Positions 25,560 through 49,690 of a stretch of 64,000 nucleotides of DNA are shown here, one piece after another. The position numbers were made by a program, and so were the translations under genes. The first letter of the stretch is position 1. Every line of letters starts with the position of its first letter. Source of the DNA: Natronosalvus vescus (GTDB lineage Archaea; Halobacteriota; Halobacteria; Halobacteriales; Natrialbaceae); NCBI RefSeq assembly GCF_023973145.1, contig NZ_CP099546.1, forward strand, positions 372,001 through 436,000. Reading direction: 5' to 3'. The notes under the pieces are model-generated. The model was not told the origin of the DNA. It made no database searches and worked only from the letters and a program-made list of their open reading frames with translations.

Positions 25560-25737
25560 TATTGCACTCGAGTCTTCGTACCTCGTAGACTTCGTGGGAC
25601 ACCCCCACTAGTTTCCGACGAACACGTTCGGCCGTATTCCCGCCGAGAGAGATTCTGGTTGATCTTATATCCTCTGTAGGCTCCGAGTGGCGCCTGTAGC
25701 GAGTGGGTGCATCTCGATCACTCCTCCACACCAAACC
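25560..25737 (+). promoter_or_regulatory. nosZ upstream region
   Basis: 178 bases. A GTGGG/CCCAC inverted repeat (25594-25598, 25604-25608) could end the upstream transcript. A TATA-like CTTATATC near 25667-25674 would give a leader of about 40 bases to the nosZ ATG. Oxygen or nitrogen-oxide control is expected from biology, but no known site is recognised. Confidence 0.4.
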
Positions 25738-27633
25738 ATGACCGATCTCCCTGCAACCGATACGACGGAACCGACCACAGACGCCGACGACCGCGATCCA
25801 CTGTTCGCGCGGATTCCACGGCGTGACTTCATGAAAGCTGGCGCGGCGACCGGCGCACTGACAGCGCTCGCCGGCTGTACAGGCATTCTCGAGGGCGACG
25901 GCGGCAACGGCACAGCGGCCGCGAGTTCGGCCGATCATACCGTCCCGCCCGGTGAACTCGACGAGTACTACGCGTTCTTTTCCGGGGGCCACTCCGGCGA
26001 GGTACGCGTCTACGGCGTCCCCTCGATGCGCAGTCTCATGCGCATCCCCGTGTTCAACCTCGAGGGCGCTCGGGGCTACGGCTACGACGACGAGACTCGA
26101 GAGATGCTCGAGGACGCCGGGGGCTACACCTGGGGTGACGTTCACCACCCCCGCGTGAGCCAGACGGACAACGAGTACGACGGCCGATGGCTCTTCGTCA
26201 ACGACAAGGCCAACGGGCGCCTGGCCCGGATCTGCCTGAAGTACTTCGAGACCGACGCCATCGTCGACCTGCCGAACCAGCAGGGGACACACGGCGCCTG
26301 TGCGCTGATGCCAGACACGAAGTACATCTTCGGCGTCGGCGAGTTCCGCGTCCCGATGCCCAACGACGGACGGGATCTCGACGACCCGAGCGCGTACACG
26401 TCCGTGCTCTCGGCCGTCGACCCCGAGACGATGAACCCCGTCTTCGACGTGAAAGTTAGCGGTAACCTCGACAACGGCGACTCCGGGAAGAACGGCCGCT
26501 GGTTCTTCTCGACCTCCTACAACAGCGAGGAAGGCGTCACCGAGCAGGAGATGACCCAGGCGGATATGGACTGGGTCACCGCCTTCGACATGCCCGCGAT
26601 CGAGGAAGCCCTCGACAACGGCGACTACGAGGAAATAAACGGCGTCCCAGTTATCGACGGAACGAAAGACAGCCCGCTCAACGACGCCGACCGGCCGATC
26701 GTTCGGTACGTCGACGTGCCCTCGAACCCCCACGGCGTGACCGTCACGCCCGACGGGAAGTACGCGATCGCGTCCGGCAAACTCGACAACACGTGTACGA
26801 TCATGGAACTCGATCTCCTCGGCGAGGTCGACGACCCGAACGACGCCATCGTCGGCCGACCCGAAGTCGGCATGGGGCCGCTCCACACCCGATACGACGA
26901 CCGTGGCCACGCGTACACGTCACTGTTCGTCGACTCACAGGTCGTCAAGTGGGACATCGAGGCGGCCGTCGAATCCGAACCCGGGAGCGACGACGCGGTC
27001 ATCGAAAAGATCGACGTCCACTACAACCCTGGCCACCTGAACGCCTCCCAGTCGTTCTCCTCGGATCCGAAAGGCGACTGGCTGATCTCGCTGAACAAGC
27101 AGTCCCTCGACCGGTTCCTCCCGGTCGGGCCGACGTTCCCCGTGAACGACCAGCTGATTTACATCGGCGACGACGAGGAGGGAATGCAACTCGTCAAGGA
27201 CACGCCAACCTACCCCGAACCCCACGACGCGACGATCGTCCACCGGGACAACATCAACCCCGAGACCGTGTACGATCCGGACGACCTCGCGCTCGAGCCA
27301 GTCGGTGGCGGCGACAACGACATCACCCGCGAGGACGGTCGAGTCGAGGTCAGGATGATCAACCAGCGAAACCAGTTCGGTTTCCAGGATATCACCGTCC
27401 AGGAGGGTGACGAAGTCGAGATCACGACGACGAACATCGAAACCAGCGAGAACATCGTCCACTCCCTGGCGATCCCACAGTACGACATCAACGTCAAGAC
27501 CGCACCGCAGGAGACGCGAAAGGTGACGTTCACGGCCGACAAGCCGGGCGTCTACTGGATCTACTGTGCGTACTTCTGCAGCGCGCTCCACCTCGAGATG
27601 CGCTCGCGGCTCCTGGTCGAACCGGAGGACTGA
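25738..27633 (+). CDS. nosZ: Nitrous oxide reductase
   Basis: 631 residues. Reduces N2O to N2 outside the membrane, the last step of denitrification. Tat signal RRDFMK (Arg28-Arg29) and lipobox L44-A-G-C47, so it is a lipid-anchored form rather than a free periplasmic enzyme. The middle is the seven-bladed propeller with CuZ histidines (GGHSGEVRVYG, DVHHPRVSQ, LPNQQGTHGAC, NPHGVTVTPDG, YNPGHLNASQS). The C-terminal cupredoxin carries CuA ligands Cys610, Cys614, His618 and Met621. First gene of the nos operon. Confidence 0.97.
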   Translation: MTDLPATDTTEPTTDADDRDPLFARIPRRDFMKAGAATGALTALAGCTGILEGDGGNGTAAASSADHTVPPGELDEYYAFFSGGHSGEVRVYGVPSMRSLMRIPVFNLEGARGYGYDDETREMLEDAGGYTWGDVHHPRVSQTDNEYDGRWLFVNDKANGRLARICLKYFETDAIVDLPNQQGTHGACALMPDTKYIFGVGEFRVPMPNDGRDLDDPSAYTSVLSAVDPETMNPVFDVKVSGNLDNGDSGKNGRWFFSTSYNSEEGVTEQEMTQADMDWVTAFDMPAIEEALDNGDYEEINGVPVIDGTKDSPLNDADRPIVRYVDVPSNPHGVTVTPDGKYAIASGKLDNTCTIMELDLLGEVDDPNDAIVGRPEVGMGPLHTRYDDRGHAYTSLFVDSQVVKWDIEAAVESEPGSDDAVIEKIDVHYNPGHLNASQSFSSDPKGDWLISLNKQSLDRFLPVGPTFPVNDQLIYIGDDEEGMQLVKDTPTYPEPHDATIVHRDNINPETVYDPDDLALEPVGGGDNDITREDGRVEVRMINQRNQFGFQDITVQEGDEVEITTTNIETSENIVHSLAIPQYDINVKTAPQETRKVTFTADKPGVYWIYCAYFCSALHLEMRSRLLVEPED

Positions 27634-27639
27634 TCGCCG

Positions 27640-28497
27640 ATGGCCCGATCCGGACGACTCGCGACGATCGCCTCGCGCCTGACCGAACTCCGGCGGGCCC
27701 TTCCCCTCATAGCTGCGGCGCTGTTGTTGCTCGCCATCGCGTTACCGATGTGGCGAATTACGCTGACCGCCCCGCAGTACCCCGGTCGGGCGCTACCGGT
27801 CGAACTGTACGCCTATCCACGACTCGGCGGCGAGTACGCGGAGGTGCAACTGCTCAACAGGTACGTCGGGTTCTACTTCCCGGATCCGGTGTTCCTCGAC
27901 CCCAACTACGAGGTGCACGAGAAGGCCGTCGCCGTGCCCGAGTGGTCGATCGGCCCGCTTCCGTTCATCGCGGTGGCCGCCGCCGGCGTGTTCGTCGCGC
28001 TGGCGCCGACCGCCCGAAAGCTCAAACTCGGCCTGACCTGCCAGCTGATCGGGACGATCGCCGTCTTTGCCGGCATGTTCGCCATCATCCAGTACCGACT
28101 CCACCAGGTCGGCCACTCGCTGGATCCGGACGCACCGCTACGAGGCGTCGAGGGCTTCACGCCTCCAGTACTCGGCCCCTACGAGATCGCGAACATCAGC
28201 GGCAACGCCTGGTTCGGCCCGGGCGGCTACCTGACGATCGCCGCCATCGGCCTCCTCGTCGTCGCCTTCCTCCTGCGCGACTCCGAGGCGACGCTGCGGG
28301 ACGCGCCCGAACTCGTTCGCTCGAGTCTCGAGCGGCTCCGAAGACGGCTTCGCCGCGGGGAAGACGAGTACACCGACACTGACGACCAGCCTGCTGGGAC
28401 GTTCCACGCGCCAGCCGACGAATTCGAGGCACCGTCGACTCGACGCACTGACTCGAGCGACGCCGACCCGATCGACAGGGGAGGTGAGCGCTCGTGA
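27640..28497 (+). CDS. Nos-cluster membrane protein
   Basis: 285 residues, six bases after nosZ. Four membrane helices: LPLIAAALLLLAIALPMW, LPFIAVAAAGVFVALAPTA, LGLTCQLIGTIAVFAGMFAI and GGYLTIAAIGLLVVAFLLRD. The first outside loop (about 45-110) has conserved-looking GRALPVELYAYPRLGGEY and VGFYFPDP. The C-terminal 60 residues are cytoplasmic, first basic (RLRRRLRR) then acidic. Similar proteins follow nosZ in archaeal and some clade-II bacterial clusters, but I know no biochemical assignment. It may help electron or copper delivery. Its TGA overlaps the GTG start of nosD. Confidence 0.75.
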   Translation: MARSGRLATIASRLTELRRALPLIAAALLLLAIALPMWRITLTAPQYPGRALPVELYAYPRLGGEYAEVQLLNRYVGFYFPDPVFLDPNYEVHEKAVAVPEWSIGPLPFIAVAAAGVFVALAPTARKLKLGLTCQLIGTIAVFAGMFAIIQYRLHQVGHSLDPDAPLRGVEGFTPPVLGPYEIANISGNAWFGPGGYLTIAAIGLLVVAFLLRDSEATLRDAPELVRSSLERLRRRLRRGEDEYTDTDDQPAGTFHAPADEFEAPSTRRTDSSDADPIDRGGERS

Positions 28498-29879
28498 GAA
28501 CCGACGCCTGGTTCGCCGGTCTCGCCGTAATCGTTCTAGCGCTGCTCCTCGCCACGGCGCTCGTCGCCGCGACGGGCGCGTCAGAAAGCGCCGAGAGCGC
28601 CAGCGACTGGACGCCCGACGTCCCAGACATCCACGACATCGACGAACCTACCGAACCCGGCGTCGCAACCCTCGACGGCGAACACTTCGACTCCGTGCAG
28701 GCGGCGGTCGACGCCGCCCAGCCGGGTGACACCGTCGTCCTCGAGGGCACCTTCGAGGAACACGTCACCGTCGAAACCGACGGCCTGACGATCGTAGCGG
28801 CCGAGCGAGACGGCGCCGTCATCGACGGCGGGGGTGAAGGAACCGTCGTCGCGATCGAGGCTCCGAACGTCACGATCGAGGGCGTCTGGATTCGTGACAC
28901 GGGTCACGAACGCAATGGCGAACACGCCGGGGTCTTCGTCAACGGCTCCGACGCGACCGTGACGGACGTCCGACTCACCGACGTCAGTTTCGGCGTCTGG
29001 ATCAACGGCGTTTCGGACGTCACCGTCGAGGGATCGATGATCGCCGGTCGAGAGGACGTCTTCCCGCTCACCGACCGCGGTAACGGCATCCACCTCTGGG
29101 ACGCCGACGACGCCGTGTTACGAGACAACTACATCACCACCGTCCGGGACGGCATCTACTACTCGTGGTCGGAGGGTGTGCTCGCCGAGAACAACACCAT
29201 GTGGGAGATGCGCTACGGCGTCCACTACATGTACTCGAACGACAACCACCTCGAGGGGAACGTCGCCGCGAACAATGACGTCGGCTTCGCGTTGATGGTC
29301 TCGGAGAACATCACGCTCGTCGACAACGTCGCCGCGAACAACGATGGCACCAGCGCCCACGGCATCCTCCTCAAGGACGTCGAACGCAGCGAGATTCGCG
29401 GGAACGCCGTCGTCGCCAACGGTAACGGCTTCTACATCTACAACGCCCAGCACAACCGGCTCGTGGACAACCTCGTCCTCGAGAACCCCGTCGGCGTCCA
29501 CGCGACCGCCGGCTCGAGCGGCGGGGTCGTCGCGGGCAACAGCTTCATCGAGAACGACGAGCAGGCGTTCGCGACGACGACCGCGCAGATCGCCTGGAAC
29601 GACTCCGACCGGGGCAACTACTGGTCGGACGCCAGCGCCGTCGACCTCGACGGCGACGGCACCAGCGAGGTTCGTCATCGACCCGCGGGAACGGTGGAAC
29701 GACTCGTCCACGATCGGCCGCAGGCGGCGGTGTTCGCGGAGAGTCCGGCGTTCGACGCCGTTCGACTGGCCGAGAGTTCGTTCCCGGTCGTCGAATCCGC
29801 GGGCCTGATCGATCACCACCCGCTGGCGGAACCGCCACACGACAACTGGAGGGACTACTATGCAAATCACGATCACTGA
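28494..29879 (+). CDS. nosD: Nitrous oxide reductase maturation protein NosD
   Basis: 461 residues. Begins with GTG overlapping the upstream stop by four bases (GTGA). An N-terminal hydrophobic helix (GLAVIVLALLLATALVAATG) exports or anchors it. The rest is a right-handed beta-helix with repeated coils (VFVNGSDATVTDVRLTD, NNTMWEMRYGVHYMYSND, NVAANNDVGFALMVSEN). NosD works with the NosFY ABC transporter to supply sulfide/copper to CuZ. HYMYSND is the family hallmark. nosF starts inside its last 20 bases. Confidence 0.92.
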   Translation: MRTDAWFAGLAVIVLALLLATALVAATGASESAESASDWTPDVPDIHDIDEPTEPGVATLDGEHFDSVQAAVDAAQPGDTVVLEGTFEEHVTVETDGLTIVAAERDGAVIDGGGEGTVVAIEAPNVTIEGVWIRDTGHERNGEHAGVFVNGSDATVTDVRLTDVSFGVWINGVSDVTVEGSMIAGREDVFPLTDRGNGIHLWDADDAVLRDNYITTVRDGIYYSWSEGVLAENNTMWEMRYGVHYMYSNDNHLEGNVAANNDVGFALMVSENITLVDNVAANNDGTSAHGILLKDVERSEIRGNAVVANGNGFYIYNAQHNRLVDNLVLENPVGVHATAGSSGGVVAGNSFIENDEQAFATTTAQIAWNDSDRGNYWSDASAVDLDGDGTSEVRHRPAGTVERLVHDRPQAAVFAESPAFDAVRLAESSFPVVESAGLIDHHPLAEPPHDNWRDYYANHDH

Positions 29880-30924
29880 TATCCACAAACGATACGGCGA
29901 CGTCGTCGCCCTCGACGATCCTTCCTTCGAGATTCCGTCGGGATCGACGTTCGGCGTCCTGGGGACGAACGGCGCGGGAAAGAGTACGTTATTCGGCCTG
30001 CTGGTCGGTCACGACCGGCCCGATAGCGGAACGATCGACGTCGGCGGCCTCGACGTCGAGGAGGCGGGACACCGCGTGCGCGAGCGCGTCGGCTTCCTGC
30101 CCGAACACAGCGGTTTCCCCGGCTCGTTGACGGGACGGGAAGTCCTCTCGACGCACGCCCGGATTCGCGGCCTCGAGAACCGCGACGAGCGGATCGAGGA
30201 CGTCCTCGAACTCGTCGGGCTTAGCGATGCCGCCAATCGAGCGGTTTCCGGCTACTCGAACGGGATGGGCCGTCGCCTCGGACTGGCTGCGGCCCTGCTC
30301 CCGGAGCCACCAGTACTCGTTCTCGACGAGCCGACCGCCGGACTGGATCCGCGTGGCGTCGCGGCGTTTCACGACATCGTCACGCGCATCGGAAACGAGA
30401 CCGATACCACGGTCGTCCTCTCCTCACACGTACTCAGCGAGGTCGAGTCCCTCTGTGATCACGTCGCGATCCTCCACGACGGTCACCTCCACGCCAGCGG
30501 CTCCGTCGAGGCGCTGTGTGCGACTGGCGACACCGCCACCGTCAGCGTGGCGACGACGAGTCCCGACGCTCGCATCCACCTCCTCGATGAACTACAACTC
30601 CGTGTCGAGGATCTCGAGGTCGTTCGCCACGACGGCTCGAGTGACCGACTCGAACTTCGTTGTGACCGCAACCGGGCGTTCGATCTCGTGGCGCACCTCG
30701 AGTCCGACCTTGTCGAGCGCTTCGAGGTGCGCGAACCCGGGCTCGAAGCGGCGTTCCACCGGGCGATCGATGGGGAATCGGTCTCGGAACCGGTCTCGGA
30801 ATCGGTACCGGTGGCCGACGAACCGACCAGGGACGACGAGGTTCGGAGCGAGAGCACCGAACCAGCAGGAGGGGACACCGTCCTCGCCGAAGGGGACGCC
30901 GCCCCCGCGGAGGTGGGCCGATGA
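29860..30924 (+). CDS. nosF: NosF, ABC transporter ATPase
   Basis: 354 residues. Walker A GTNGAGKST, signature region AVSGYSNGMGRRLGLAAALL (degenerate LSGGQ, as usual for NosF), Walker B VLVLDEPTAGLDP and the switch His in VVLSSHVLSE. After the ATPase core (about residue 220) an extra domain of about 75 residues is followed by a highly acidic linker with repeated SEPVSESVPV that ends at the nosY overlap (ATGA). Drives NosDFY-dependent CuZ assembly. Strong Shine-Dalgarno-like GGAGGG sits just before the ATG. Confidence 0.93.
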   Translation: MQITITDIHKRYGDVVALDDPSFEIPSGSTFGVLGTNGAGKSTLFGLLVGHDRPDSGTIDVGGLDVEEAGHRVRERVGFLPEHSGFPGSLTGREVLSTHARIRGLENRDERIEDVLELVGLSDAANRAVSGYSNGMGRRLGLAAALLPEPPVLVLDEPTAGLDPRGVAAFHDIVTRIGNETDTTVVLSSHVLSEVESLCDHVAILHDGHLHASGSVEALCATGDTATVSVATTSPDARIHLLDELQLRVEDLEVVRHDGSSDRLELRCDRNRAFDLVAHLESDLVERFEVREPGLEAAFHRAIDGESVSEPVSESVPVADEPTRDDEVRSESTEPAGGDTVLAEGDAAPAEVGR

Positions 30925-31832
30925 CCCTTACGAGCGAGTACGAAGGTGACCTCGAGTCGGTCGAGCCGATCGACACGGCTCACGCCGACGAGACCACGTC
31001 CACCACGACGACGGCGACCTCGAAAGCCGTCGGCCGGCAGGTGCTGGTGCTCGCCGAATCGGAGTACCGACTGGCCGTCCGGAGTCGCTGGGCGGTCGCG
31101 CTGACCGGCATCTTCGCCGCGTTCGCCCTCGGGCTGACGACGTTCAGCGGCGCGAGCGTCAGCCCCGAGGGCTTCGACCGAACCGTCGCGAGCCTCGCGG
31201 TGCTGGCGGTCTACCTGGTTCCGCTGGTCGCGCTGGCGTTCAGCTACGACGCCATCGTCGGCCGGGAGGAGAGCGGCTGGCTCCAGACGCTGTTCTCCCT
31301 GCCCGTCTCGCGGGCCTGGATCGTCCTCGGCACCGGTCTCGGCCGAGGCGCCATCCTGACCAGTGCGACGATCATCGGCTTCGGCGTCGCGGGCGGCTTC
31401 CTGCTGCTCGAGTTCGGCCTGGCCGGCTTCGACACTTACGTCGCGTTCCTGCTCGCGACCGTCGCGCTCGGCCTGGCGTTTCTCGCCCTCGGCGTCCTCC
31501 TGTCGACGCTGGCGCGCGAGAAGACCCACGCGCTCGGCTTCGCCTTGCTGGCGTGGGCGTGGTTCGTCCTCGTCCACGACCTGCTCGCACTGGGCGTCCT
31601 GTCGGCGTTCGACCTCCCCGACGCGGCGCTTTCGGTGCTGTTACTCGCCAACCCGACGAGCGTCTTCCGGGCGCTCGTCCTCGGCAGTCTCGGCGCGGCT
31701 GGTGACGCTGGCTTCGCCTCCGTGCTCGCGGAGGCCGGCCTGTCGACCGGTGTCCTCCTCGGGGCGCTCCTCGCCTGGATCGTCGTGCCAATCGCGCTCG
31801 CGGCTGTCGTTATCCGCCGTCGGAGGGTCTAA
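30921..31832 (+). CDS. nosY: NosY, ABC transporter permease
   Basis: 303 residues. Six predicted helices. EYRLAVRSRWAVALTGIFAAF is the N-terminal start of the ABC2 permease family, then LAVLAVYLVPLVALAFSYDA, GREESGWLQTLFSLPVSRA (the coupling segment with SLPVSR), LGRGAILTSATIIGFGVAGG, LATVALGLAFLALGVLL and, at the C terminus, LLGALLAWIVVPIALAAVVI. Forms the membrane part of NosDFY. ATG overlaps the nosF stop (ATGA). Confidence 0.92.
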   Translation: MTLTSEYEGDLESVEPIDTAHADETTSTTTTATSKAVGRQVLVLAESEYRLAVRSRWAVALTGIFAAFALGLTTFSGASVSPEGFDRTVASLAVLAVYLVPLVALAFSYDAIVGREESGWLQTLFSLPVSRAWIVLGTGLGRGAILTSATIIGFGVAGGFLLLEFGLAGFDTYVAFLLATVALGLAFLALGVLLSTLAREKTHALGFALLAWAWFVLVHDLLALGVLSAFDLPDAALSVLLLANPTSVFRALVLGSLGAAGDAGFASVLAEAGLSTGVLLGALLAWIVVPIALAAVVIRRRRV

Positions 31833-31834
31833 TC

Positions 31835-32449
31835 ATGACTCCACAACACAATCGACAACACCACCATCACCACCGCCACGAGACACTCTCGCGTACCGAC
31901 CAGAACCATTCGAGCGGCTTCTCGAGGCGTCGATTCCTCGCTTGCACAGCGATCGCGACGACGGCTGGGCTCGCGGGCTGTCTCGGCAACGACGACGATG
32001 ACGCCCCGCCCGCAGAACCGATCGCCCTGACCGGCGGCCGCGAGTGTGCCGTCTGTGGCATGGTCATCGAGGATCACTACGGCCCCGCCGGGCAGGTGTT
32101 CTACGATGACGATGACGACGACCCAGTCACGTACGACAGCCTCACCGAACTCCTCGTCCACCACGACGAACAACGCCAGCGTGGCACCGACGCCCGCGGC
32201 GTATTCGTCACCGATTACTCGAGCGTCGACTACGACCTCGAGGAACAGGGCGGCTCGCCGTACATCTCGACCCACGCCGAACAGGAGGCGTTCGCGGACG
32301 CGACGGAACTGTTATATCTCGTCGACAGCGCGATACATGGCGCGATGGGCCCCGACCACGTTCCGTTTTCCAGCCGCGAAGACGCCGAGGCGCTTCGGGA
32401 GGACGTCGGCGGCGAAATCCGCGAGTGGGACGACCTGGTCGAGGGCTGA
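31835..32449 (+). CDS. nosL: NosL copper chaperone, Tat lipoprotein
   Basis: 204 residues. Copper(I)-binding NosL motif CAVCGMVIEDHYGPAGQVFYD. Tat signal SRRRFLACTAIA and lipobox LAGC place it outside the membrane. Unusually, the signal is preceded by a His-rich stretch (HNRQHHHHHRHE, residues 5-16). No other start codon exists between the ATG and the Tat motif, so this stretch is part of the signal peptide n-region. Two-base gap after nosY. NosL delivers Cu to the NosZ apoprotein via NosDFY. Confidence 0.93.
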   Translation: MTPQHNRQHHHHHRHETLSRTDQNHSSGFSRRRFLACTAIATTAGLAGCLGNDDDDAPPAEPIALTGGRECAVCGMVIEDHYGPAGQVFYDDDDDDPVTYDSLTELLVHHDEQRQRGTDARGVFVTDYSSVDYDLEEQGGSPYISTHAEQEAFADATELLYLVDSAIHGAMGPDHVPFSSREDAEALREDVGGEIREWDDLVEG

Positions 32450-43711: not shown

Positions 43712-44296
43712 ATGCGCGAACACGAGTCCACTGTGTCGCTGCCGGTGTCTCGACGACGCTTGCTGGCGCTTGCGGGCGTCGGAACCCTCGGTGCGGTTGC
43801 CGGCTGTCTCGATGACAACGACACACCGGACGCCCAGGAGTTCACCGACGAGGACGCCTGCCAGAACTGTGGCATGCTCGTCACCCAGCAACCCGGGCCC
43901 AGCGGGCAGGCGTTCTACGACGACCACCCCGACCTCGAGGACGGGTGGGCCCCCTTCTGTAGCGGCACCTGCACCTACGGCTGGACGCTCGAGCAGGGGA
44001 ACGCGGGCAACGATCCGCTCGTCACCTACCTCACTGATTACGCCATCGTCGACTGGGGGGTCTCCGACGACGGCGACCTGCGTTTCATCTCGGCCCACCA
44101 CGACGGCGACGAGCAAGCGGACGCCACTGATCTCACGATGGTCACCGGAAGCGAACTTCGAGGGTCGATGGGACAGGATCTGATCGGCTTCTCCGATACG
44201 GACGAGGCCGAGGCGTTGCAGGACGAGTACGGCGGCGAACTCGTCATCCACGACGAGGTCACCCTCGAGCTGGTCGATAGTCTCGGCGGAATGTGA
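43712..44296 (+). CDS. NosL-like Tat lipoprotein (second copy)
   Basis: 194 residues. Tat signal SRRRLLALAGVGTLGAVAGC with lipobox at the Cys. NosL-type copper motif CQNCGMLVTQQPGPSGQAFYD, plus an extra cysteine pair further on (FCSGTCTYGW), absent from the nosL of the nos operon. Convergent with the PQQ-propeller gene. It belongs by content to the second nos-like accessory set on the other strand. Likely a copper carrier for another copper enzyme or a specialised partner. ATG at 43712 places the signal at the N terminus. Confidence 0.85.
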   Translation: MREHESTVSLPVSRRRLLALAGVGTLGAVAGCLDDNDTPDAQEFTDEDACQNCGMLVTQQPGPSGQAFYDDHPDLEDGWAPFCSGTCTYGWTLEQGNAGNDPLVTYLTDYAIVDWGVSDDGDLRFISAHHDGDEQADATDLTMVTGSELRGSMGQDLIGFSDTDEAEALQDEYGGELVIHDEVTLELVDSLGGM

Positions 44297-44383
44297 GCGG
44301 AAACGGTGTGCTTGCTTTCGCTGGGGTGGGCAATCGGCGACAAATTGATGCCCCGTTCCCTACGAGGTGTCTCGAACGCTTCG

Positions 44384-45877
44384 TTACTCGGTCGATTCGT
44401 CGGTTCGGGCCCGGCGGCGAAGCCACTCGAGTCCGAGCGCGCCGCCGATGAGCCCGGCACCGGTCGTAAATCCGGGCGAGCCGTCGGCCGGGAACGATGC
44501 GACGTCCGACGTTTCGACGCTGTCGTCCCCGTCCCCTTTCCCGTCGCTGTCGTCCGTCGCACTCTCGTCCGCGTCGTCTACGGAGCAGCCGACGCTGTCG
44601 TTTTCGTCGTCCTCACTCGAGTTGTCGTCTCCGTCCTCGTTTGGCGTTTCGTCCTCGCTCGTTGACTCTCGGAGGGCGACGAGCTCGCCATCGTGGTCGA
44701 CGTACAGGGTTTCGTCGCTGATCGCCCGAATCTGCCCGATCGGGGCATCCGTCGTCGTCAGTGACCAGCGTTCGCTTCCGTCGTGCTTGTCGAGGGCGAC
44801 GAGCGCCTCATCGTACTCGCTCCACTCCGCTTCGGCGTCTCCGAAGTGCACGTAGACCGTGTCGCCACAGACGACGCCCTGTCCGGCGTTGTACGCACTC
44901 GAGACGTCCCAGCTTGGATCGTCTCCCTCGGGGGCGCTCGCGAAGAACGAATGGTTGTTCCCACTGACGTAGATCTCTTCGCCGAGAGTCGTTTCGTGGC
45001 GGGTTTCAGACCAGATCAGTTCCTGCAACTCCCCGGTCTGTGCGTCGTGGACACCCTGCTCGACGTCCGACCACCAGTCGACGATGACTGCGTTCGAATT
45101 CGCGTGAATCGGCCCCGCGAAGTCCTGGTAGACCTCCTCGTCTCGCCAGACGTCCTCGCCGGTCGTCGGCTCCACCGCGTGGACGGTTCGTTGCGTCGCG
45201 GCGTACACCACGCCGTTCGCGGCGGCGGGAGATCGGTTGAAGCCGAACGTGTACTCCTCGTCGCTCCCGGGAGTCGTGACCGTTACCGAATCGCGTGCCC
45301 ACCGCGTCGAGCCATCGCCGATCTCGAGGGCGTACAGCGCGCCGTCGGCGACGACGTAGACGCCGCCGTAGCCGACGGCGTGTTCGCTCACTTCCCCGTC
45401 GCCGGCCAGTTCGCGCTCCCACCGAACGCGCCCGTCTTCGCGGTCGAGCGCCACGATCCCTGCTTGGTTTGCGAGGACGACCGTCTCACCGATGACGGCC
45501 GGATTGGCTGCCTCGACGTCGGCGTTCGTCCAGACGACCGTTCCGTCCGCGGCGTCGACGGCGATGACGCCCTCGGCGCTCGAGGTGTACACCGTGCCGT
45601 TGGTGATGGCGACCGAGCCGTCGTGATCGACCGACCAGGCGGCATCGAGCGCCCCGGCGTCGAACTCGTAGGTGGCGTCGACGTCTCTCGTGTGGCCGGG
45701 GTCGCCCCGGTAGGACGCCCAGTCTTCGTCCATCTCGGGCATTGGGTCGATGCTGGGGTCGAGGAGGGCGTCGGCGTCGCCAGCTGTGGCACCCGCTGTT
45801 GTCGTCGAGGCGAGACCGATCCCGGCCGCGAGTGTTGCACCTGTCGTGAGAAATGTGCGGCGATTGTACGTGGACAT
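44384..45877 (-). CDS. Tat-exported PQQ-type beta-propeller protein
   Basis: 497 residues. Tat signal NRRTFLTTGATLAAGIGLAS. Repeated beta-propeller units with WxxD and AxDxxDGxxxW patterns: VIAVDAADGTVVWTNADVEA, IVALDREDGRVRWERELAGD, LYALEIGDGSTRWARDSV, VHAVEPTTGEDVWRDEE, LVALDKHDGSERWSL. This fits a PQQ-like propeller of 6-8 blades; no calcium/quinone ligands checked, so cofactor use is open. After an acidic linker (about 425-465) a C-terminal hydrophobic tail (PGFTTGAGLIGGALGLEWL) looks PGF-CTERM-like. Last gene downstream of the second ABC set. Confidence 0.8.
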   Translation of the reverse strand: MSTYNRRTFLTTGATLAAGIGLASTTTAGATAGDADALLDPSIDPMPEMDEDWASYRGDPGHTRDVDATYEFDAGALDAAWSVDHDGSVAITNGTVYTSSAEGVIAVDAADGTVVWTNADVEAANPAVIGETVVLANQAGIVALDREDGRVRWERELAGDGEVSEHAVGYGGVYVVADGALYALEIGDGSTRWARDSVTVTTPGSDEEYTFGFNRSPAAANGVVYAATQRTVHAVEPTTGEDVWRDEEVYQDFAGPIHANSNAVIVDWWSDVEQGVHDAQTGELQELIWSETRHETTLGEEIYVSGNNHSFFASAPEGDDPSWDVSSAYNAGQGVVCGDTVYVHFGDAEAEWSEYDEALVALDKHDGSERWSLTTTDAPIGQIRAISDETLYVDHDGELVALRESTSEDETPNEDGDDNSSEDDENDSVGCSVDDADESATDDSDGKGDGDDSVETSDVASFPADGSPGFTTGAGLIGGALGLEWLRRRARTDESTE

Positions 45878-46020
45878 GTGATGGCTGTGTCACGCCGCCC
45901 TCAATACTATCGGGCGTATAGCGGACGATCCTACTTTCGAAACTGTTGCAACACGAAAAAACCGGCGATAAATCAGCCATGGCTGTCGAAATTGGCTCTC
46001 CATCGGGAGGCGATGGCCGG

Positions 46021-46926
46021 TCAGACTCGGTCGACGGCGACGGTCGCGACCGCCAGCGAAGCGACCGTCCACAGCGCCAGCCCGAGCAGGCTCGCAATCG
46101 GGGACGCCGTTCGCGGCCCCGGCCCCGAGGCGGCGATCACGGCCGTCTCGAGGACGAGTCCACGGAACGCGCTGAGGGGGCTCAGCGCCAGCGTGTAGAT
46201 GAGCGATCCGTCACTGATGAACCCCGCCGAAAATCCGTAGACGATCGCGAGGTCACCAGCCAGGAGCACTCCCAGTAGCGCGATCACCGTCAGTGCGAGT
46301 GCACTCCTGGCGGTACTCGCGACCGCCGAAATCGCGACCGCGACGGCGAGGACGACGAGCCCGAACACCGCGGCGAGGACGATCAGCCGGAGGAACAACA
46401 GCGGCGAGTCCGCACCGGCGTGGGTCGCGTAGATGCGGATCGTCTCCCGCTCGGTGAGGGCGACGGCGGCGAAGACGGCCAGCAGCGGCCCAACGATGGC
46501 GACGACCAGCCCGGCCGCCCGCCCGACGTAGACGCCGAGGACGACCTGCCAGGCCGAGACCGGATACGTTCGCAACACTTCGAGTTCTCCGCGCCGGGTG
46601 TCGGCCAGGATCGCCCGGTAGCCGAAGGCGACGGCGACGATTGGGACGAGCAACTCGAGGGGCGTCAGCAGGTCGACGATGGTGGGGACGTAGCCGGCCC
46701 GAACGCCGCCACCGGCCCACGCGACGCCGAGGAGAACGACGGTCAGCGACGCTGCAAGGACGGAGAAGGTCGGCGTCCTGGCGACGGTGTGGAGTTCGCG
46801 GCGGACGATCGTCGAGAGAATCGAGACGGAACCGGGCGCGTGTTCGTGGCGTCGGCGCGCTGCCTTCGGCACTGTCTCGTCGGGTTCCTCGAGCGCCGCG
46901 GACCCGGATCCGGACTCCGAGCTCAC
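46021..46926 (-). CDS. ABC permease, NosY-like (second set)
   Basis: 301 residues. GTG start overlapping the ATPase stop (GTGA). N terminus is cytoplasmic and acidic. Then STIVRRELHTVARTPTFSVLA and helices including VLAASLTVVLLGVAWAGGGV, LLVPIVAVAFGYRAILADT, followed by RRGELEVLRTYPVSAWQVVLG (the coupling motif), AAGLVVAIVGPLLAVFAAVAL, LIVLAAVFGLVVLAVAVAIS, and a last helix LGLALWTVASLAVATVAV. Architecture is that of NosY. Confidence 0.87.
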   Translation of the reverse strand: MSSESGSGSAALEEPDETVPKAARRRHEHAPGSVSILSTIVRRELHTVARTPTFSVLAASLTVVLLGVAWAGGGVRAGYVPTIVDLLTPLELLVPIVAVAFGYRAILADTRRGELEVLRTYPVSAWQVVLGVYVGRAAGLVVAIVGPLLAVFAAVALTERETIRIYATHAGADSPLLFLRLIVLAAVFGLVVLAVAVAISAVASTARSALALTVIALLGVLLAGDLAIVYGFSAGFISDGSLIYTLALSPLSAFRGLVLETAVIAASGPGPRTASPIASLLGLALWTVASLAVATVAVDRV

Positions 46927-47690
46927 GTCGACTCACCTCTGACCCGAACAGTTCCGGCCTCTCCTACGACCGAGGCTTCGTAGGCCTCGAGAAGCGACGT
47001 CACCTCGAGTTCGTCGACGATCGACGCCGGCGCCCCCGTCTGTACGAGCCCGCCATCGTCGAGCAGCGCCACGGTGTCGGCGTGGCGGTCGACCAGCTCG
47101 AGGTCGTGTGAACTCACCAGGACGGCCTGGCCGCTCGCGGTCAACTCGTTCGCGACGTCGAAGACGTGCGCGCGCATCCCCGGGTCGAGCCCGCTCGCGG
47201 GTTCGTCCAGGACGACCACCGGCGGGTCGCCGATCGTCGCCTGTGCGATGCCCAGGAGCCGGGTCATCCCTCCCGACAGCGCCTCGACGTTCCGATCGGC
47301 TGCCGCTTCGAGCCCCACGTGCTCGAGATGGGTCATGGCGACGTCGGCGTCGGCACCGACGAGTTCGGCGTAGAACGTGAGCGTCCGCCGGACGGTGAAG
47401 CCGGGGCGGAACGACGGCTGCTGGGGGAGGTAGCCGATGTCGCGAGCCACGTCGGGGCCGCGATATTGCAGCCGTCCCGCGCTCGGACGGAGAAGTCGGG
47501 CCATGATCCGGAGCAGCGTCGTCTTGCCCGAGCCGTTCGGCCCGATCAACGCCGTCATCTCCCCGGCGGGGACGCCGAGTGAGACGCCGTCGAGCACGTC
47601 GACGCTGCCGTAGGCGTGCTCGATGTCGCTCGCCTCGAGGATCGCCTCGGATGGCTCGGTCGTCGCTTCGGTGGATGTGTTCGGTGTCAC
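46923..47690 (-). CDS. ABC ATPase, NosF-like (second set)
   Basis: 255 residues, GTG start. Walker A GPNGSGKTTLL, signature ALSGGMTRLLGIAQ, Walker B VVVLDEPASGLDPG, switch LVSSHDLELVDRH. Shorter than the first-cluster NosF and lacks its acidic tail. A 27-base tandem repeat lies between it and the NosD-like gene upstream. Expected to drive the NosY-like permease. Confidence 0.9.
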   Translation of the reverse strand: MTPNTSTEATTEPSEAILEASDIEHAYGSVDVLDGVSLGVPAGEMTALIGPNGSGKTTLLRIMARLLRPSAGRLQYRGPDVARDIGYLPQQPSFRPGFTVRRTLTFYAELVGADADVAMTHLEHVGLEAAADRNVEALSGGMTRLLGIAQATIGDPPVVVLDEPASGLDPGMRAHVFDVANELTASGQAVLVSSHDLELVDRHADTVALLDDGGLVQTGAPASIVDELEVTSLLEAYEASVVGEAGTVRVRGEST

Positions 47691-47693
47691 GGG

Positions 47694-47768
47694 TGGGATT
47701 TGCTGTGTGATGCTGTTGCGTGGGGTTTACTGTGTGATGCTGTTGTATGGGGTTGCTATGTGGGATGG
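47694..47768. repeat. 27-base tandem repeat between nosD-like and ATPase genes
   Basis: Two nearly identical 27-base units (47694-47720 and 47721-47747; TGGGATTTGCTG... and TGGGGTTTACTG..., both ending GTGTGATGCTGTTG) plus a partial third from 47748. It fills the 86-base gap in an otherwise tight operon and is G/T-rich on the plus strand. It may affect translation of the ATPase or form RNA structure. Confidence 0.7.
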
Positions 47769-47776
47769 TCGGGTTC

Positions 47777-49690
47777 TCAACTCTCCAAGGTACTGCACAC
47801 GTACGTATCGTACACGAAGTCGGTGTCGTCGAACAGGTCGGGATCGGGTGGCTCACAGAGCGGTGCCGTATCGACGACCTCGCCTTCGCGCATTCCGGGA
47901 ACGGTGCCCGCGAGTTCGCCACGTACCTCGAGCGCGAGCGACTGGGCGAGCGTCGGCGTCCCATCGACGGTGTGAAGCGCTCCGTCGACCGGCGTGGTCG
48001 GGGTGTACGGGCGGTCGATTACGGTACCCTCGGTTATTCCGACGGCTCCCTCCCAGTAGTTTCCGGCGCCGTCGTGCGTCCAGACGCGGAGCGGCCCGGT
48101 GGTCACCTCGGCGTGGACGTCGTTGTCGATGAAGGCGTTCCCGACGACCCGACTCGTGGGCACGGTCGAACTCGCGAGGACGCCGCGCTCGTTCCCGGCG
48201 ACGAGATTTCCCTCGTACAGCGAGTTGTCCGCGTTCGTCGTAAAGCCGACGCCGTTGTCTATCAGGACGTTTCGAGCGACGTAACTGTCGCTCCCGCTCA
48301 TGCGGATGCCGCTGGGGGCGTCCCGGACGTCGTTCCCGACGAATGCGTTCCCCCGCGGGGCGGTCATCACGATGAGGCCCGCAAGCTCCTGGTCGCGCAC
48401 GTGGTTGTCCGCGACGAGCGCGTCCGAGGTGTGCATCAGATGGACGCCGAATCGCCCGCCGAGCAGCTCGTTGTCCCTGACGACGATGTCGTGAGAGCGG
48501 TGGGTGTAGACGCCGTCCCTGCCGCCCGTGATCGTCGACTGCTCGATGACGCCGGGCGAGCGCATGGCCATGACGCCCATGAACCCCTCCCGCCACTCCT
48601 CGCTCCCGGTTATCGTCGACGATCGGACGACTGCGTCGGGGCTATCGCGCAACAGCACGCCGTTCGATCGGGTCTCGACCGTCACGTCCTCGAGCAATAC
48701 GCCCGGGGCGTCCACCACGGCGATCGCGGCGTCGCCGTGGCCGTAGCCCTGCTCGACGTTGCTGTCCCAGGTGTCGGCTGCGATGTCCGCGTCGGGATCC
48801 ATGAACCGGTCGCCGACGCCGGTGACCGAGAGGCCCGTGATGGCGACGCGGTCGTCGTTCACGGTGATCACCGAGCCGTTGCCGTCGCCCTGGACGAGCG
48901 GGTCACCCTCGCCGGCGAGGGTGATCGACCGGTTGATCTCGACCGTTTCGTCGTACGTTCCCGCGGGCACGACGACCGTCGTTTCTGCGGGGGCCTCGTC
49001 GACAGCGGCCTGGATCGTCGGCGCGTCCTTGCCGACGACGAGGGAGTCGGGTCGGTCGCGAAGCTCGTTCGAGCGCTCGACCAGTTCGTCCGCCGCAGCG
49101 GCCTGACCGTCGACGCGGTCGCGGACGTGGCTGGCGTCGTCGACGTCGAACTCGCGCTCGAGGACGGCCTCCCAGGGGACGACGGTGCCGCCGTAGGTGT
49201 CGGCGAAGGCGGCCGCGTCGTCGGCCTCGGAGAAGGGGATCGCGGTCTCGCCGGCGGGGGTTCTGGCCTCGCTGTCGACGACGAAGTGGGCGCGTTCGGC
49301 GTCGACCCAGCCGCCGAACCTGTCAGTGACCGGGTATCCCTCCTCGGATAGCTCGAGCTCGGTCGGGCTGTAGTCGCTGACGTACACCGCGAGCGGGTAG
49401 CCAAACTGCTGGTCGTGGGCGGGCTGTCGGCTCGTGGTGACGAACGTCTCGACGCCGTAGTAACCGACGACGTACTGGTACTGCGAGTAGAACACCTGGA
49501 CGCGCGGAAGGTCGACGTCCTCGGGGAGCGCGCGCTCGTCCTCGAGGGTGAGTCCCATCGAGACGGTGTCGTCGAAGTGTACGGGGTCGGGGTCGCTCGC
49601 ACCGACGTCCACGACGAAGAGACCGACGATCGTGAGACAGACGAGCCCGAACGCGAGCCCGATCCAGACTACTCGCGGAATGTCGTCCAC
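47777..49690 (-). CDS. NosD-like beta-helix protein (second copy)
   Basis: 637 residues, longer than nosD (461). GTG start. Single N-terminal helix (VVWIGLAFGLVCLTIVGLFV). An extra domain (about 40-205) precedes the beta-helix: YSQYQYVVGYYGVETFVTTS, ARTPAGETAIPFSEADDAAAF (a NosL-like C-terminal pattern), after which the family starts with LVVGKDAPTIQAAVDEAPAETTV and carries coil repeats (GVLLRDSPDAVVRSSTITGSE, YTHRSHDIVVRDNELLGG, HLMHTSDALVADNHV). The HLMHTSD turn corresponds to HYMYSND of the first NosD. First gene of the second set. Confidence 0.85.
   Translation of the reverse strand: MDDIPRVVWIGLAFGLVCLTIVGLFVVDVGASDPDPVHFDDTVSMGLTLEDERALPEDVDLPRVQVFYSQYQYVVGYYGVETFVTTSRQPAHDQQFGYPLAVYVSDYSPTELELSEEGYPVTDRFGGWVDAERAHFVVDSEARTPAGETAIPFSEADDAAAFADTYGGTVVPWEAVLEREFDVDDASHVRDRVDGQAAAADELVERSNELRDRPDSLVVGKDAPTIQAAVDEAPAETTVVVPAGTYDETVEINRSITLAGEGDPLVQGDGNGSVITVNDDRVAITGLSVTGVGDRFMDPDADIAADTWDSNVEQGYGHGDAAIAVVDAPGVLLEDVTVETRSNGVLLRDSPDAVVRSSTITGSEEWREGFMGVMAMRSPGVIEQSTITGGRDGVYTHRSHDIVVRDNELLGGRFGVHLMHTSDALVADNHVRDQELAGLIVMTAPRGNAFVGNDVRDAPSGIRMSGSDSYVARNVLIDNGVGFTTNADNSLYEGNLVAGNERGVLASSTVPTSRVVGNAFIDNDVHAEVTTGPLRVWTHDGAGNYWEGAVGITEGTVIDRPYTPTTPVDGALHTVDGTPTLAQSLALEVRGELAGTVPGMREGEVVDTAPLCEPPDPDLFDDTDFVYDTYVCSTLES

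Follow-up and report, generated by a model that had tools for sequence, protein, structure and literature searches.

Genes related to nosDFYL that a member of the class Halobacteria carries in addition to a complete nos operon probably help to build a ba3-type haem-copper oxidase, since the copy encoding a NosL-NosD fusion travels with this oxidase, and not with NosZ, across 391 genomes. As judged by sequence comparison, we favour the view that these genes encode a machine of the NosDFYL type that hands copper to a haem-copper oxidase, here most likely the ba3 oxidase encoded at ~2.226 Mb, and not to NosZ. The observations that bear on this assignment are the anatomy of the set, the conservation of its residues, its gene order and its pattern of co-occurrence. 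The set is widespread; it is tied to ba3 oxidase statistically, and physically to genes for SCO1 and DsbD_2 and, in some loci, for copper ATPases and oxidase subunits. The window analysed is a stretch of 64,000 nucleotides (G000:C1:372001-436000) from a single-contig genome.

The gene set and its fusion protein

The gene for the fusion protein (47777-49690, minus strand; 637 aa) is separated by 86 bp from a downstream gene for a NosF-like ABC ATPase (46923-47690, minus strand; 255 aa; PF00005, 102 bits), which overlaps by 4 bp the gene for a NosY-like ABC-2 permease (46021-46926, minus strand; 301 aa; PF12679, 39.8 bits). An ABC ATPase and an ABC-2 permease thus share an operon with the fusion, as in NosDFYL systems. 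Walker A (GPNGSGKTT), signature (LSGGM) and Walker B (VVLDEP) motifs were read from the translation of the ATPase. The permease gene is followed after 143 bp by a gene for a Tat-type PQQ/BamB-like propeller (44384-45877, minus strand), which was judged to lie outside the system (see below), and a gene for a stand-alone NosL lipoprotein (43712-44296, plus strand; PF05573) faces the set. The Pfam scores for NosL (118 bits), NosD (100.7 bits), ABC_tran (102 bits) and PQQ_2 (75.8 bits) are far over the respective cut-offs. A complete nos operon (25732-32449, plus strand), which includes nosZ and genes for a membrane protein, an unfused NosD, NosF, NosY and NosL, occupies ~25.7-32.4 kb of the window. 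The five genes were all found where a sequence-only reading of the window had placed them, and the second nosD-F-Y order that it described is present; its distance from the nos operon is ~11 kb.

The 637-aa protein, which had been described as NosD-like with an extra domain at residues 40-205, is a NosL-NosD fusion, since residues ~62-177 match PF05573 (58.7 bits). The extra domain therefore exists and is itself NosL. It is preceded by a predicted N-terminal membrane helix (residues ~6-23) and followed by a 27-residue linker helix (185-211) and a NosD β-helix (~214-510; PF05048, 100.7 bits). In an AlphaFold model built from 7 sequences, the β-helix is confident, with pLDDT >90 for most of residues 214-510; the helical linker was modelled, and the NosL-like domain is of moderate confidence only. 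The best PDB match of the fusion found by Foldseek is NosD of NosDFYL (7osf_A, E 2.5e-8), and phmmer aligned the fusion with Pseudomonas stutzeri NosD (7o0y, E 4.7e-12). Against the curated NosD model TIGR04247 (cut-off 300), the fusion scored 198.7 bits as a whole protein and 143 bits in the genome scan, both below the cut-off, whereas the NosD of the nos operon in the window passes with 387 bits.

Alignment of 89 fusions revealed that the NosL-like domain lacks cysteine in 83 of them. The domain has lost the CxM Cu(I) motif, Met45 is not conserved, and by eye the position corresponding to FCSxxC reads YSQY, with Y68 present in 89/89 and S69 in 87/89 sequences. In the NosD half, H417, M419 and M442 are present in all 89 fusions and are also invariant in 13 NosDs from nos operons; H417-x-M419 aligns with P. 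stutzeri NosD. Two further histidines, H526 and H573, are a feature of the fusions only. Near the C-terminus, C612 and C632 co-occur in 54/89 fusions and are mostly lost together, and the pair probably forms a disulfide. One fusion call (L053, 1290-4271) is 993 aa long, with more than 300 residues before the usual start, which may reflect either a genuine additional domain or an incorrect start call. The genome that includes the window also has very long open frames of about 3450 aa with several NosD-like β-helix segments (G000:C1:2968633-2972055 and 3227547-3229601), in a context unrelated to copper as far as it was looked at.

The stand-alone NosL has a Tat-like RRR and a lipobox Cys, a CxxCxM motif (CQNCGM) and, as noted in the earlier reading, FCSGTC. 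It thus combines a NosL fold with CxM on a lipoprotein, the features of NosL copper chaperones. Among the stand-alone NosLs at fusion loci, CxxCxM is present in 62/70 and FCSxxC in 54/70. CuA (CNEYC) and SCO proteins have the same CxxxC spacing as the latter motif. In the NosLs of fusion loci, CxxxC was found in 61/68 cases from genomes with ba3 oxidase versus 3/15 from genomes lacking it (p=1.8e-7, with related genomes counted individually). In contrast to the NosL of the set, the nos-operon NosL of the same genome does not include FCSxxC. The NosL of the set shares CxxCxM with clade II NosL, for which this motif has been described, and differs from the NosL of Paracoccus denitrificans and Achromobacter (2hpu; PMC6530538) in the additional conserved FCSxxC. 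In L043 (7027-9507; 323 and 475 aa), L049 and L085, lipoproteins whose C-terminal part is a NosL domain are encoded in tandem beside a solo fusion gene and the gene for an ordinary NosL, which suggests a third locus type in this family.

Co-occurrence with ba3 oxidase and neighbouring genes

Scanning of 391 Halobacteria genomes (threshold E<1e-50) detected the fusion in 240. For ba3 oxidase, subunit II from locus L052 was used as query. The matches split into a group with E <1e-30 and a group at E 1e-17 or weaker, and ba3 was assigned by subunit II similarity at E<1e-25, with a clear gap to other CuA proteins. Both fusion and ba3 are present in 214 genomes, only the fusion in 26, only ba3 in 48 and neither in 103 (odds ratio 17.7, p=2e-32). 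The association persists when stratified by genus (Cochran-Mantel-Haenszel odds ratio 17.1, p=2.6e-11, 23 informative genera). In the genus of the window's genome, ba3 oxidase is present in 4/4 fusion-positive genomes and absent from 3/3 fusion-negative ones. The genes often lie at distant positions, so that linkage does not explain this co-occurrence. In the window's genome, 1.8 Mb separate the set from the ba3 genes, which are located at 2.226 Mb and flanked by genes for DsbD_2 and a copper ATPase.

Subunit I of this oxidase has the HPVVY tyrosine typical of oxygen reductases and subunit II the CNEYC CuA motif. With the catalytic tyrosine present, the enzyme looks like an O2 reductase, and its assignment as an NO reductase was rejected. 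The CuA subunit (L146, 9825-10709) has a C-terminal extension of ~125 residues that is absent in L052, and long open frames at ba3 subunit II matches suggest the same extension in many genomes of the family to which the window's genome belongs.

Gene neighbourhoods were compared in 80 loci from other genomes, in which genes were called by composition and all proteins were clustered. Of 92 fusion anchors, 72 have the ATPase at +1 and 72 the permease at +2, and a NosL gene is near 76. Genes for SCO1/SenC (PF02630) and DsbD_2 (PF13386) are each near 38/92 anchors. As the window's genome encodes SCO1 only three times in 3.8 Mb, the chance of finding one near an anchor is estimated at ~1-2%. Other recurrent neighbours are an HVO_0163-type HTH regulator (26 anchors), DUF7471 (23) and further NosL lipoproteins (23). 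A single cluster in L052, and likewise in L072, encodes the fusion, ATPase, permease, NosL, a copper P-type ATPase, DsbD_2 and ba3-type CoxB-CoxA, and in L064 and L104 CoxB-CoxA are close to the set; linkage of oxidase genes to the set is limited to a few loci. The set has both the co-occurrence and the neighbourhood with oxidase and SCO1/SenC genes that would be expected of an oxidase assembly factor. Two complete fusion-ATPase-permease units are arranged in tandem in L092 and L094, two successive fusion genes precede a single ATPase-permease pair in L050, and several genomes have fusion genes that stand alone, with no ABC module.

The 48 genomes with ba3 oxidase alone show that the set is not indispensable for ba3 and, together with the 26 genomes with the fusion alone, that there is neither a strict requirement for it nor exclusivity. 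Of 20 inspected loci that encode the fusion in ba3-negative genomes, most retain the ATPase, permease and a NosL, and no alternative copper enzyme stood out among the 20. In genus g47, which lacks ba3, the set adjoins genes for SCO1, DUF420 and a thioredoxin-like protein, an arrangement consistent with the assembly of oxidases in general and not of ba3 alone.

It was also considered whether the set supplies copper outside the cytoplasm to several cuproproteins (halocyanin, NirK and various oxidases), ba3 being only the commonest client. Such a general role would account for the fusion in the 26 genomes lacking ba3, for the solo or tandem fusion paralogues and extra NosL lipoproteins of several genomes, and for a weak association of the fusion with NirK (odds ratio 2.2 raw, 1.98 with p=0.05 by genus, and 2.0 with p=0.12 by genus and ba3). 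However, the association with ba3 is far stronger than that with NosZ or NirK (odds ratios of 15.6, 1.27 and 1.32, respectively, in a joint logistic model), and the SCO1, DsbD_2 and copper ATPase neighbours, as well as SCO1 and DUF420 in g47, indicate oxidase assembly. The general role is therefore regarded as unlikely, and NirK as the main client was rejected given its weak association. The earlier proposal that the set matures another exported copper protein is favoured, with ba3-type haem-copper oxidase as the specific candidate.

The architecture of an ABC transporter and the copper P-type ATPase genes near some loci might likewise be expected of a copper tolerance or export system, or of a sulfur exporter, sited with respiratory genes by chance. 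However, a resistance system would not be expected to include a NosD β-helix and a lipoprotein chaperone or to co-occur with one enzyme class, and no resistance genes are among the top recurrent neighbours of the fusion anchors. We assign this explanation a low probability.

Relation to NosZ and to the adjoining propeller

NosZ is encoded in 113 of the same 391 genomes. It accompanies the fusion in 88; a further 152 genomes have the fusion without NosZ, and 25 have NosZ without the fusion. NosD is unfused in 12/12 nosZ loci examined elsewhere, as it is in the window's own nos operon. The set is thus not a nosZ appendage and, unlike NosDFYL of nos operons, is neither encoded with nosZ nor dependent on it. 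The possibility that the fusion serves as the nos-operon NosD in some genera, which arose from an annotation of Haloferax mediterranei (PMC9240420), was rejected on the same 12 loci; four of them are from genus g29, whose sampled members carry both fusion and NosZ, and NosD is unfused there.

A redundant second set for CuZ assembly of NosZ would be consistent with the homology to NosDFYL, the location of the nos operon 11 kb away and a raw odds ratio of 2.9 between fusion and NosZ. However, this ratio decreases to 1.6 (p=0.24) within genera and to 0.97 (p=1) within strata of genus and ba3. Together with the genomes that have only one of the two genes and with the unfused NosD of nosZ loci, this largely refutes the explanation, which we consider very improbable. 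The independence from NosZ proposed in the sequence-only reading is thus borne out, and the set is not confined to genomes with nosZ.

The propeller was suggested previously to be part of the set or the protein that it matures. Its tail, SPGFTTGAGL...RRR, resembles PGF-CTERM by eye, as had been pointed out, but has no match to a PGF-CTERM model in NCBIfam at E<=0.001. A search of 101 genomes of the family and all fusion loci indicated a dispersed, multi-copy protein family, with 6 copies in the window's genome and up to 11 in others, that looks mobile or rapidly duplicating. Adjacency to the set in the window is all that speaks for maturation of the propeller. However, among the 92 fusion anchors a propeller gene follows the permease only in the window, and its closest relatives in the genus (~55% identical) are encoded in genomes without the set and are missing from the other members that carry it. 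The propeller was hence rejected as partner or target, and its maturation is refuted as a general role of the set and has next to no probability.

Proposed copper route and relation to known systems

For the assembly of ba3 oxidase, we infer which way copper moves, which site receives it, what the degenerate NosL domain does and that the handover is driven by ATP; CuA is perhaps the likeliest site. Copper would arrive outside the membrane, possibly via a P1B-type copper ATPase encoded beside the oxidase. The lipoprotein NosL, with its CxxCxM and CxxxC motifs, would bind Cu(I) and dock on the membrane-anchored NosL-NosD fusion. As its copper ligands are lost, the fused NosL domain may be a structural or docking element and not a carrier. 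The NosF/NosY-like pair would reshape the fusion by hydrolysing ATP, and copper would pass by way of His417-x-Met419 and Met442 of the β-helix to the apo-oxidase, most likely to CuA of subunit II. SCO1/SenC and DsbD_2 would hold thiols and copper in the proper redox state. We propose tentatively that the NosDFY motor is not CuZ-specific, and that its haloarchaeal version with a pseudo-NosL domain and a CxxxC NosL loads the binuclear CuA of a ba3-type oxygen reductase. ATP-driven insertion of copper into a respiratory oxidase, which this proposal includes, would be an undescribed route.

Genes of the known oxidase assembly pathway, namely those for SCO1/SenC and P1B copper ATPases, recur beside the set. 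To our knowledge, no ATP-driven NosDFY-type module has been recognised in that pathway. A link between NosD-type machines and ba3 oxidase was not found in searches of an open-access library.

The set shares a β-helix NosD, an ABC ATPase, an ABC-2 permease and NosL with the NosDFY(L) system for NosZ maturation in P. stutzeri (7o0y, 7osf). It differs in that NosD is fused to a NosL-like domain free of Cys ligands and has an N-terminal membrane helix, that the fusion is below the curated NosD cut-off, and that it is untied from nosZ. NosL has been described as dedicated to CuZ in Paracoccus (PMC6530538). Clusters of nosD, nosL, nosY and nosF without nosZ are present in Bacillus azotoformans and were suggested to supply other copper proteins such as NirK (PMC3475470); no fusion was reported there, and the client suggested is not an oxidase. 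A plasmid-borne "nosD" of H. mediterranei is listed in an annotation table with NosL and NosD domains, the same combination as in the fusion, but was read as a NosZ accessory with no link to an oxidase, and H. volcanii is reported to have nosFY but no nosZ (PMC9240420).

The current view of NosDFYL is that it serves only CuZ of NosZ, and copper delivery to archaeal terminal oxidases has been little studied. If the proposed role is correct, the set, which is present in about 60% of the sampled Halobacteria, would extend ATP-driven copper handover to aerobic respiration, and would give a chaperone domain without its metal ligands a testable role. It would also explain the "orphan" nos accessory genes in genomes that lack nosZ, and would caution against taking such genes as evidence of N2O reduction.
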